From Verrucomicrobiota bacterium (GTDB taxonomy: Bacteria; Verrucomicrobiota; Verrucomicrobiia; JADLBR01): a DNA stretch of 34,240 nucleotides. The notes beneath the pieces are model-generated. The model did no database searches. It saw only the letters and a program-made list of their open reading frames with translations, and had not been told where the DNA came from. The stretch covers positions 1 to 34,240 of the forward strand of contig JAKQKQ010000062.1 in the NCBI GenBank assembly GCA_029560585.1. The letters run 5' to 3'. A program made the translations under genes and the position numbers. Shown here piece after piece: positions 1 through 3,600 of the stretch (its first letter is position 1; each line of letters opens with the position of its first letter).

Positions 1-43
1 AGACCTTTCCCACTAAATGGCTCTCATGGCGCGGTTTTTCCAG

Positions 44-86
44 AGCCCGGAATTTCACAGCCGGCAGGCTGTGAAATATCCGGGCT
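44..86. repeat. Near-perfect palindromic repeat, copy 1
   Basis: The left arm (44-62) and right arm (67-86) are reverse complements except for one T missing from the left arm, around a GGCA loop. The reverse complement of the right arm is AGCCCGGATATTTCACAGCC. The same 20 bases recur exactly at 13377-13396, so this is a dispersed intergenic element and not a chance palindrome. It would form a stable stem of about 19 bp in RNA. Its place relative to an upstream gene is unknown because the window starts here. Copy 2 sits on the stop codon of the porin gene, so a role in transcript ends is possible but inferred. Confidence 0.8.
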
Positions 87-117
87 AGCTCGAGAAGAGG
101 GCGTATCGGTCGGGTGG

Positions 118-168
118 CGAAGGGCTTGCGCCCTTCGGCGGTGGCCATGGGCAAGATGCCCATGCCAC
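118..168. repeat. Two adjacent hairpins
   Basis: The first hairpin (118-137) has perfect 8-bp arms CGAAGGGC/GCCCTTCG around TTGC. The second (141-168) pairs a 13-base left arm with a 12-base right arm with a single bulged C, around AGA. Neither is followed by a run of T, so an intrinsic terminator is not supported in either direction. They look like members of the same intergenic repeat cluster as the 44-86 palindrome. Confidence 0.65.
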
Positions 169-318
169 GGTCCTGTGGCACGGGCGTCCCCGAGCGAGGG
201 CCGAAGCCGGAATGTTCGTAAAATCGCCTCTGGCGGTCGGCTTCGCTACGAATTTTCTGCCCCGGTGGTCTGGCAGCCGCCGGATGGGATCTGGTTCGAA
301 AATGCAGATGCGGGGCAG

Positions 319-373
319 CAGGAGCCTGCTTGCAGGCCATTCCATGCGCGAATCGCGCGCAAGCGCGCTCCTA
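319..373. repeat. REPIN-like pair of inverted REP units
   Basis: Unit 1 (319-342) and the reverse complement of unit 2 (350-373) align without gaps. Both contain AGGAGC, two variable bases, GCTTGC, two variable bases, GC, and end in ATTC. The variable pairs (CT/AG in unit 1, GC/GC in unit 2) co-vary, so each unit keeps a hairpin around its GCTTGC core. The two units face each other across a 7-bp spacer (343-349). This head-to-head layout is that of REPINs, and the core resembles the REP family known from Pseudomonas. REPINs are normally mobilised by a RAYT (TnpA-REP) transposase, and none is encoded here. Confidence 0.7.
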
Positions 374-602
374 TGACCCATTTTCACCCCCGATGGTGCA
401 CCGAATGCCCGCCGCCGGGCGGGCGGCCGGGGCATGGGATATCGCAAAACTCGTATCAGAATGCAAATCCCGTTTCCGAGCGCGTGAGCGTTTGGCCCGC
501 GTCTCCAGCGCCCACGCGCCAAGAACCGATTGCTCAGCATGTCTCAGGGTACCTCTTGCTTTTGTGGGCTTGCTTGGTTATGAAACCCGGCCGATGCATC
601 GG

Positions 603-3600
603 ATGGAATCTCTCGGGTGGACCTTGCGGTCTAGGTGGTTGAGCGGGTGGTGTGTGGGGTTGGTGTTGGCGGGTGGGACTCCCGCGGCCATGGCGCAGTC
701 GTCGCGAGACACGGTTGTCGAACTGAATGCCGTGGTCCAGACGAACGCGCCCGTGATCACGCTGCAGTGGAACAGCGTGGCGGTGACCACGGCCCTTGAT
801 GTTTATCGGCGAGACAAGGGGGCCACGAGCTGGGGCACGGCCATCGCTGCGCTGGATTCAAATGTGACCTCGTTCGCCGATTCCAACGCTGTCACGGGTG
901 CTGTGTACGAGTACATGATTCGCCGGGCGCGATCCTCGGCTCCAACCGAGGCCTATGGAACGATCGTGGCGGGCTGCAACGTGCCGCTGGTGGAGGATCG
1001 CGGCCGGGCGCTGCTGATGGTGGATCAGTCGCTGCTGTTGTCGCTGGCACCGGAGGTCGATCGGCTGGAGCGAGACCTAGTGGGCGACGGTTGGACGGTG
1101 GTTCGGACCAACGTGGCGCGCATGGCGGTGGATCCGGCCTCGACCAATTCGGCGCAGTGGGCCGCGCGCCTTGCCGAGTTGCAGGCGGTGCGCGCCATCG
1201 TCCAGTCAAACTACGTGGCAGATACTAACCGCATCGGGTCGGTCTTCATACTGGGGCGTTTGCCGGTGCCGTATGCCGGGAACCTTAACCCTGATGGTCA
1301 CCCCGACCATCAGGGCTCATGGCCGGCAGATGCATACTATGCGGACGTGAATGGGACGTGGACCGACACGAGCGTCAACACGGTCAACAATTGGACGCAG
1401 CCTTCGGATCTCCGCAACCGGAACGTTCCCGGAGACGGGAAGTTCGATAACACCACGATCCCGACGACCTCTGAGCTGGCCGTCGGCAGGGTCGATTTTG
1501 CCAACATGACCAACGTGCCCACGGGCATGGGGGAGGTGGCGCTGCTCCGGCAGTATTTGAATAGGGACCACGCGTTCCGGCATGGGCGTGCGCCATACGC
1601 CAGCGTGCCGCGCCGGGCGCTGATCGACGACGGTTTCGGCTATTTCTATGGCGAGGCCTTCGCGGCATCGGGCTGGCGCAATGGCTTCACGTTCTTTGGG
1701 CGCGCCTCGACCAACGTGGTGGCCGCGGATTGGTTCGCGACGCTGGGGACAAACCAATATCTGCTGGGCTACGGCTGCGGGGGCGGATCTTACACCAGCG
1801 CCGGCGGCGTGGGGACATCAACCTATGACTTTGCGCGGAAGGACTCGCGCGCGGTGTTCACCATGCTGTTCGGAAGTTACTTCGGGGATTGGGACAAGAC
1901 GGACAACTTCTTGCGTTCGCCTCTGGCGGGGACTTCGGGCTCCATGGGCCTGACGTGCGCGTGGTCGGGTCGCGGCTATTTCCATTTTGACCACATGGCC
2001 ATGGGCGAGATGGCGGGCTATGGCATGTGGATAAGGTACAACGATCCCGTGTACCTGGTTTCCGGAGGCTGGGAGGGCAACGGTTATTCGAGGTACGTTC
2101 ACCACAACCTCATGGGTGACCCGACTCTGCGGCTACACACGGTGCCGCCGCCTCTCAAGCCCGCGGCGCAGGTGGCCACGAATCAGATTGCGCTGTCGTG
2201 GCAGGCCCCTTCCGATCCCACGATCGCCGGGTATCATGTGTACCGCGGGACGAATCCGGCTGGTCCGTTCACGCGGCTGACGGGTTCGGCCGCGACGCCG
2301 ACCGATCCCATGGGCTCGCCCATCGGCGCGACAACGTTTGCCGACAGCACCGTGGTCGCGGGAACGAACTACACCTACCTGATCAAGAGCATCCGTCTCG
2401 AGGGCAGCGCCAGCGGCACGTACGCGAACAGCAGCCAGGCGGCGGGGGTCAATGCGGCGGCGGTGGATGCGGGACTCGGGGCACCGGCCGCGCCAACCGG
2501 TCTGTTGGTCGTATTCCAAGGTGGCACCACCTACCAGCTGACATGGGAGGACAATGCGACGGGCGAGACCGGGTACGAGGTGCAGCGCCGGGATCCAGCT
2601 ACGGGCAACTGGTCCACGATCACGACGCTTGGGGCGGACAGCACCTCGCACAGCGACGGTGCGGCACCCTCCGGCGGGGTGGTCCACTACCGCGTTCGCG
2701 CCAATGGCGCATCGGCCAACTCGGCGTATTGCGAGGCCACCGCCGACCCGAATACGCCCGGGGTGCTTCGTCCGGTCGCCGACACCGTCTTCGCCAACAA
2801 GGCGACGCGAAAGGCCGTCATCGACGTGCTCAGATACAACGGTTCGGCCGGATCGGTCGGGGTGAACTATGCGACATCGGATGTTACCGCGACCAACGGC
2901 GTGGATTTCCTTTACGCATCGGGCTCGCTGTGGTGGGCGCACGGCGAGACGACGAATAAGACGGTCAATGTGACCCTCGGATATGTCGTGGCGCCGCAGC
3001 TGACGCGGATCTTCCGGTTCAATCTGAGCGGCGCAACAAACGGGGCGGGCGTGCAGACGCCGGGGTACAATTACGTGTTCATCTCCGACACCAACGCGCA
3101 ATCGATGCCCGCGCCATGGACCACGACAAACATCGGCGCGCTTTCGATCACGGGATACAGCGAACACGTCTCGGGCACCTTCGGCTCGACCTGCCGCTCC
3201 GGCGACATCGCCGGCACGTCGGACAACTACCGATCGATCCACCAGCAGGTTTCGGGTGATGTGCAGGTGACGTGCCGCGTGCCGAGTTTTCCGACGACAT
3301 TCCTCGGGAGCGCGAAGGCCGGCGTGATGATCCGGTCGAATATGAACGCCAATGCCGCGTGCGTGGCCGCACTGGTCGAGCCCGATGGCGCCGCACAATC
3401 CTTGTCGCGTGCGTCGGTGGGGGGGAATGCATCCACCCCGGGCACCGCGACCGGCGTGAAGTTCCCGTGCTGGTTGCGCGTGAGGCGGGCCGGCACCACC
3501 AACAACTGCTGGTATTCCACCAACGGCGCGTCGTGGATCGCACTTGGCGGCGCCACCGTCAACGCGGGCCTCGCCACGAATGCCTACGTCAGCCTCGGCG

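Follow-up and report, generated by a model that had tools for sequence, protein, structure and literature searches.

A GTAG-tagged REPIN family of a Verrucomicrobiota genome lies in a frame that carries other REPIN families in a sister species

The window, which is the whole stretch of 34,240 nucleotides analysed here, holds at positions 318-374 an inverted doublet belonging to a family of GTAG-tagged REPINs of the Pseudomonas-like type (family A) in a genome of the PVC group (Verrucomicrobiota). The doublet is real, and chance does not account for it; it belongs to a short intergenic hairpin repeat with at least 150 copies, which was probably mobile in the past. Most doublets of the family lie in a conserved frame, which is common to a sister species and which, for the families searched, holds different REPIN families there. 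It is proposed, as the probable reading, that family A is a non-autonomous REPIN in an inherited frame whose insert has been filled or replaced by successive REPIN families, with RAYT enzymes presumably responsible for the copying. The term REPIN refers here to structure and to kinship of the unit and stops short of a complete REPIN-RAYT system.

A sequence-only reading had pointed to an inverted pair at 319-373, and this pair is present as AGGAGC-CT-GCTTGC-AG-GC at 320-337 on the plus strand and AGGAGC-GC-GCTTGC-GC-GC at 355-372 on the minus strand, the two being exact inverted partners. The units had been given as 24 bp long, a length reached only if the first spacer bases are counted; with their feet the units measure 20 nt. 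The features of this part of the window are as follows.

44-86, no strand: family D palindrome of 43 bp, AGCCCGGAATTTCACAGCC..GGCTGTGAAATATCCGGGCT, adjoining the framed array (read from the sequence)
85-97, plus: left frame end of the first unit, CTAGCTCGAGAAG (degenerate CTGACTCGAAAAT)
114-249, plus: cargo E, a REP-like segment with several hairpins, running from GTGG (a degenerate GTAG) to CTAC; same cargo and frame at four other loci
252-268, plus: right frame end of the first unit, ATTTTC-TG-CCCCGGTGG
269-292, plus: small hairpin TCTGGCAGCCGCCGGA (269-284) and terminal TGGGATCT (285-292) of the first unit
291-303, plus: left frame end of the second unit, CTGGTTCGAAAAT, within the match of covariance model R1
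318-374, plus: family A REPIN (window doublet), 57 bp with GTAG-type feet (a 17-nt spacer between units of 20 nt each), the feet here degenerated to GCAG and CTAT
318-337, plus: CT-type REP unit, foot and AGGAGCCTGCTTGCAGGC, the latter exact at 320-337
338-354, no strand: spacer of 17 bp, CATTCCATGCGCGAATC (common form GATYCCATGCGCGAATC), the length found in 42 of 73 doublets
355-374, minus: GC-type REP unit, foot and AGGAGCGCGCTTGCGCGC read on the minus strand, the latter exact at 355-372
380-396, plus: right frame end of the second unit, ATTTTC-AC-CCCCGATGG
397-442, plus: variable hairpin (397-434) and terminal TGGGATAT (435-442; sequence)
476-497, plus: family G REP remnant, CCGAGCGCGTGAGCGTTTGGCC; G is the commonest cargo in the sister-species frames

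The feet of the window copy are degenerate on both sides (GCAG on one, CTAT in place of CTAC on the other), and with both feet lost this copy is probably immobile. Inside the window alone the exact unit is matched just by this pair, and four matches at three mismatches do not exceed chance (shuffle mean 5.35). RNA folding of the window copy is weak and not exceptional with full flanks (z -1.1 and -1.7) and better for the core (z -2.3 and -3.1). Searches of window 1-700 against Rfam returned no match up to E 1, and an automated repeat finder at default settings reported nothing in the same segment, despite the plain inverted units and the 43-bp palindrome. No matches were obtained in a distant search of a plasmid collection with window 280-450, or in viral contigs with the exact doublet core (CT-type half, GATYC, 0-7 bases, GAATC, GC-type half).

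The genome itself (G000; 7.06 Mb in 336 contigs, 95.7% complete, contamination given as 4.2%) contains 302 exact matches to the pattern AGGAGCNNGCTTGCNNGC, 148 forward and 154 reverse, and none to the same pattern written backwards. Counting units and doublets genome-wide, the check suggested by the sequence-only reading, thus yielded 302 exact units together with 73 doublets formed from an exact CT-type unit. The partner is of GC-type in all 73 (two with one base changed) and of CT-type in none; the pattern behind this count starts from an exact CT-type unit with any partner and is blind to GC/GC pairs. A pattern without the CT-type condition, applied to DNA fetched from the same genome, found 33 distinct doublets, all CT/GC, many of them at loci fetched for holding the unit. 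The spacers of the 73 doublets are 17 bp (42), 10 bp (30) or 9 bp (1) long. Unit variation in this genome comes down essentially to two types, CT/AG and GC/GC, in keeping with the earlier remark that the flanking dinucleotides differ between units while pairing is preserved within each; family-wide, both variable stem positions are Watson-Crick paired in 13 of 19 distinct GTAGGAGC unit sequences, drawn from all loci fetched up to then, against a mean of 2.1 and a maximum of 7 in shuffles. Doublets fold into a single long hairpin, in which the unlike dinucleotides form internal loops. In 14 plus-oriented doublets the bases before AG are GT in eight, GC in five and TT in one, and the right side ends in AC in 11, with three others. 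Family A thus combines high-copy short palindromic units, inverted doublets with preferred spacing, extragenic location and a GTAG-type foot, and the resemblance to Pseudomonas REP/REPIN elements noted earlier is borne out by a GTAG-type family of hundreds of units. At C9:55780-56010 and at locus L086 the 10-bp and 17-bp spacer forms are fused in tandem, which suggests recombination between copies.

When the surroundings of the REPINs were aligned, conservation was found to extend past the feet, a feature absent from the sequence-only reading. The consensus of this frame is CTGACTCGAAAATTCAGACACCGAATC-GTAG..REPIN..CTAC-GTCCCATTTTC-nn-CCCCGGTGG, after which come a variable hairpin and, in some copies, ATGGGATCT; its ends can be recognised as CTGACTCGAAAAT on the left and ATTTTCnnCCCCGGTGG plus hairpin on the right, often with GGGATCT after it. 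With 2 and 3 substitutions allowed in the frame ends, 23 of the 33 doublets carry both ends (left 27, right 26), an arrangement met at one in 5000 random positions. Ten doublets lack at least one end within these limits and three lack both; by eye, two of the latter are degenerate frames and the third, on the minus strand of L084, has no trace of a frame and is the one doublet of the 33 left out of the alignment (A2). Downstream of the right end a GC hairpin is found in 17 of 26 cases, against 29% of random 70-mers, and an end like ATGGGATCT in 10 of 26, against 7%. The left frame end reads C-TRR-CTCG in most copies. Searching contiguous sequence gave 28 frames in 834 kb of G000 and two in the same sequence reversed. 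No empty frame was recognised in the genome, which argues against a landing-site model, since such a model would predict one.

R1, the covariance model built on the framed element, has at least 150 matches in the genome, 10 in the congener G001 (E<=0.01) and none in G002-G004. On the window it matches 290-402 over all 113 positions with 118.9 bits, the window copy being among the 32 rows behind the model. Matches in Opitutaceae run through the REPIN core and reach 42-59 bits at the loci viewed, against at least 93 for the listed G000 copies; unframed Opitutaceae copies also match over the full length, and a full-length match was therefore dropped as proof of a frame. Nor does the R1 count serve as a family A count in G001, since three of the five matches with loci (L366, L372 and L384) hold cargo of other kinds.

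The window shows how framed units can follow one another: 85-292 and 291-442 are two tandem framed units, with cargo E and then cargo A, and bases 291-292 form both the end of the first and the start of the next left frame end. In window 85-442 and at C254:70283, REPIN, right frame, hairpin and left frame alternate in tandem. Apart from family A, the frames of this genome carry the GTAG..CTAC segment E (C24:150677, C24:157212, C9:61856, C9:133408 and window 114-249) and the family B REPIN (C254:31940 and C254:70301); for the first of the family B sites, comparison with the orthologous region of G001 gives no clear picture.

The cargo of the frame differs in the sister species. A search for any of six families no more than 60 bases behind a left frame end (at most 2 or 3 substitutions, right end not required) yielded 22 sites in G000, of which 15 hold A, five E and two B, and 42 sites in G001, of which 35 hold G (GTAGCCGAACGCG..), six I (GTAGCCACGGCC..) and one H (GTAGGCTGCGCC..); these counts, which cover six families only and stand without a shuffled control, include one L423 cargo counted twice. 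The right end is present at 21 of the G000 sites and at 23 of those in G001. The six cargo families start and end within the frame mostly at GTAG/CTAC feet. Irrespective of cargo, 606 kb of G001 contain 22 frames and the reversed sequence none, although at least four of the 22 look by eye like chance coding matches (L348, L394:4074, L396:16868, L414:15276); the sample was partly chosen, several contigs entering through collinearity matches and L356, L372 and L384 through R1, with 20 pieces taken by contig number. The frame is therefore common to the two species, and the REPIN families in it differ as far as the families searched are concerned.

Contig C254 is collinear with G001 at 73-89% identity. 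At C95:64268, behind the 3' end of a gene common to both species, G000 carries REPIN A after a left frame end, and G001 carries two G units, each with a left frame end; G000 has no right frame end at this A/G site, and the one in G001 is truncated or degenerate. At the L030 site G000 has an A remnant, and G001 has a framed G unit and, behind it, a framed A unit in degenerate form. At L410 and L420, G001 has framed G units, and the orthologous gene ends of G000 carry none. At C254:27845 frame and REPIN are both absent from G001, where another short hairpin stands between the two genes. C254:39930 was discarded as a test for an empty site, since a different gene occupies that place in G001. These comparisons suggest that family A is older than the species split at one site, and that G is framed in G001 where G000 has A or nothing; the case for cargo replacement thus comprises one clear and one complex orthologous locus.

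As to their position, none of the 19 family A sites that could be placed lies in a gene, compared with 88% of random positions (home-made codon-based gene calls), and five of the 24 A sites, at edges of fetched pieces, were left out of the orientation count. Eight of the 19 lie between convergent, nine between tandem and two between divergent genes, with an excess of convergent sites (p ~0.007). In G001 the upstream gene uses the frame's own TGA, TAG or TAA as its stop codon at 16 of 42 sites (e.g. L410, L407 and L420), where 11% would be expected from CTRR in non-coding DNA (p 6e-6); in G000 it does so at four of 22 against 8.5% (p 0.11). The coincidence may reflect target preference, selection, or both.

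Among 113 relatives, G000 included, unit matches were obtained in four, namely G000 itself and three others with one match each. The exact pattern has no match in G001, and the statement that family A is absent there was nevertheless dropped because of degenerate framed A copies at C243 and C185. Across 387 genomes of the phylum, 27 have a unit match and seven have at least 10; besides G000 the unit-rich genomes are G194 (113), G248 (62), G336 (60), G229 (40), G391 (24) and G339 (14), all of one family, taken as Opitutaceae or close; the window's genome would belong to a different order of that class. The 23 doublets in Opitutaceae and related named contigs comprise 19 homotypic and four mixed ones, and two of them have a left frame end, none a right end and none both.

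The sequence-only reading also predicted a RAYT gene flanked by the same units. RAYT-like genes do exist in the genome, with six matches to Y1_Tnp and eight to the RAYT model NF047646 (E 1e-11 or better, none above its cut-off), but family A units were not found flanking any of the eight NF047646 matches in this 95.7% complete assembly of 336 contigs, and a RAYT could lie on a lost contig. Two closely similar broken Y1 transposase genes on C246 (9537-9866 and 15222-15512, L037) were rejected as the partner: one copy has an in-frame TAG and the other is without the C-terminal part (two frames compared), and the nearest doublet lies about 1.25 kb off. The Y1 genes on C243, C268, C147 and C163, coding for 318-356 aa, were rejected as well, the family A unit being absent from the 5.8-11 kb fetched around them. 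Two RAYT-size genes, C287:31658-32026 (L046) and C223:32651-33019 (L048), carry DHAH or DHGH together with RYIRENP motifs and are flanked by REP family B, whose core GGCGTCTNNNNNAGACGCC is found at 59 places in G000 and at none in G001; together they are possibly an intact second REP-RAYT system.

Flanked RAYT genes were found elsewhere. In 11 genomes (G001 and ten bearing the unit) NF047646 has 94 matches, and 70 loci around them, a few of which overlap, were viewed (30, three of these from G001, and then 40). Family A lies on both sides of a RAYT gene at L127 in G336, L131 in G229 and L132 in G248, with T or C allowed at two loop bases; most RAYTs of the unit-rich Opitutaceae genomes are unflanked. 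Profile A1, built from these three flanked RAYTs, has its highest scores in G000 on C287 (45 bits) and C223 (39 bits), against at least 310 for its own members. At E<=1e-20 it matches 41 of 387 phylum genomes, taken as the same draw as for the unit count, with six of the seven unit-rich genomes (G000 is the exception) against 35 of the 380 others; at most nine candidates were scored per genome, with all 36 scored in G000, and among the matches the G194 copies carry stops and the G339 match is weak. A further 124 loci of A1 relatives (44 unnamed, 80 named) contain 52 units in 12 loci, nine of which are among the 80 named and three of which repeat flanked-RAYT loci already counted; the backwards pattern gives 0, and most A1 relatives have no unit nearby. 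Named RAYTs with units on both sides come from Verrucomicrobiota (L206, L208 and L209, from Opitutia or Opitutus MAGs) and from proteobacteria (L225 Stutzerimonas stutzeri, L233 Pseudomonas jinjuensis, L268 Comamonadaceae and L281 gammaproteobacterium). Unit and RAYT thus co-occur elsewhere, since flanked RAYTs are found in Opitutaceae and proteobacterial loci, and the best explanation for G000, in which the units are so far without a cognate RAYT, is that the family A RAYT has been lost or is unassembled. GTAGGAGCNNGCTTGCNNGCGA is carried beside RAYTs in Pseudomonas and Stutzerimonas loci; to judge from these loci, family A is presumably akin to GTAG-1. The single-contig genome G194, with its 113 family A units, has three RAYT-A relatives with in-frame stops (L167, L176 and L181), a possible case of a decayed RAYT and a surviving REP population.

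Taken at sequence level, these data allow a mechanism to be sketched. A RAYT (HuH single-strand transposase) reading GTAG-footed hairpins would most likely have copied family A around the genome. In the genus the element is laid out as CTGACTCGAAAAT, linker, GTAG..REPIN..CTAC, linker, ATTTTCnnCCCCGGTGG, hairpin and often GGGATCT, with tandem units possible between genes. The frame would be an older scaffold, whose insert successive REPIN families fill or replace, A here and G in the sister species. The framed hairpins, extragenic and enriched at convergent genes, would probably have an effect on transcript ends. That neither an empty frame nor a family A RAYT was recognised argues against the simplest form of this mechanism. 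A genus-specific REPIN socket, in which HuH enzymes acting at the GTAG/CTAC feet would cut out one family and join in another within the inherited scaffold, leaving sister species with different hairpins at the same gene ends, is a tentative and rather doubtful extension.

Frame and REPIN might instead form one mobile unit, MITE-like or IS200/IS605-like, with cargos swapped by recombination between copies. Such a unit would account for C254:27845, where G001 has neither frame nor REPIN, for the G001 frames at L410 and L420 without a counterpart in G000 and for the failure to recognise an empty frame; the C-TRR-CTCG left end even resembles a fixed target tetranucleotide, which is an idea only. 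It fits poorly with six cargo families bounded mostly by GTAG/CTAC feet in a common frame and with the frameless A REPIN of L084, and the flanks at the compared sites are too diverged for clean junctions; this reading is possible but on the unlikely side. On a more doubtful one, selection maintains the framed repeat because it signals transcript ends in both directions, with a GC-rich hairpin and ATTTTC on both strands. The enrichment of convergent sites (8 of 19), the stop-codon coincidence in G001 and the folding of doublets as one long hairpin speak for a signal of this kind, but the T-tracts are just four long and the coincidence in G000 is slight. A terminator and promoter scan of window 1-700 was not above shuffles: its single intrinsic terminator, at 231-248 and ahead of ATTTTC in the first unit, compares with 1.0 on average in shuffled sequence. 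Termination also leaves the conserved CTGACTCG and CCCCGGTGG unexplained.

It is quite improbable that family A is an ordinary REPIN population whose flanks are hitchhiking DNA copied with the source element. Tandem REPIN clusters with flanking sequence have been described in P. fluorescens SBW25 (legend of Figure S7, PMC3116915), but here the same flanks surround several REPIN families in two species. Chance, a base-composition artefact or contaminating contigs have a practically negligible probability: the contamination figure of the assembly is all that was found in their favour, and against it stand the backwards unit control of 0, the reversed-frame controls of 2 and 0 and the copies on C254, which is collinear with its congener. 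An inherited frame with successive REPIN inserts is thus retained as the preferred reading.

Several known systems invite comparison. E. coli BIMEs are mosaics of hairpin units and linkers in which Y and Z REPs with constant motifs form heterotypic pairs, and in general layout the framed array may resemble them, with hairpins alternating with constant linkers and heterotypic pairs; unlike in BIMEs, one mosaic slot is here taken by different REPIN families, which differ in two species. IS200/IS605 elements encode HuH enzymes and insert beside a fixed short target without target duplication; unlike them, the framed repeat has no coding capacity, and C-TRR at the frame edge is only a candidate target. 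According to Bertels and Rainey 2011 (PMC3116915), the REPINs of P. fluorescens SBW25 are extragenic inverted REP doublets with conserved spacing, predicted to form one hairpin and present in hundreds of copies. Family A shares with the REPINs so described its inverted extragenic doublets, preferred spacing, one-hairpin fold and hundreds of units; it differs in that its doublets are CT/GC heterotypic (73/73 and 33/33), mostly framed and without a unit-flanked RAYT found in the genome. GTAG-tagged REPs, according to the part of Di Nocera 2013 available (PMC3733652), form heterodimers with different stems and lie mostly between unidirectional and convergent genes, and REPs are already reported there from Verrucomicrobia, as families GTAG-17, -19 and -20 of Opitutus terrae. 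Family A, with its GTAG foot, unlike-stem heterodimers and similar gene placement, agrees with that description, and the frame of the window's genus, with its REPINs that may be exchangeable, sets it apart from the O. terrae families as described in that part. In the literature searched, mainly freely readable full texts, no account was found of one frame common to several REPIN families, and we regard family A as a new REPIN family in a common-frame arrangement, with frame and cargo having presumably spread as outlined above. REPINs are usually viewed as free-standing, each tied to its own RAYT. Six families in one frame, differing by species, offer a natural test of RAYT preferred sites versus cassette exchange; framed REPINs also bear on whether REPIN populations outlive their transposase, and a Pseudomonas-type REP unit is linked to flanked RAYT genes in Verrucomicrobiota.

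Further repeats occur in the genome. Family D (AGCCCGGATATTTCACAGCC..), whose palindrome adjoins the array in the window, has 27 half-sites in 800 kb of the genome and none in the reversed control. At C17:399-764 (L015/L310) a family A REP has its loop split by an insert whose ends resemble D, and family D may insert into REP loops. Other abundant 14-mers in the 800 kb of G000, CCACCGCAGTCCAA with 12 copies and GAGGGCCCGCGGCC with 10, point to further repeat families.
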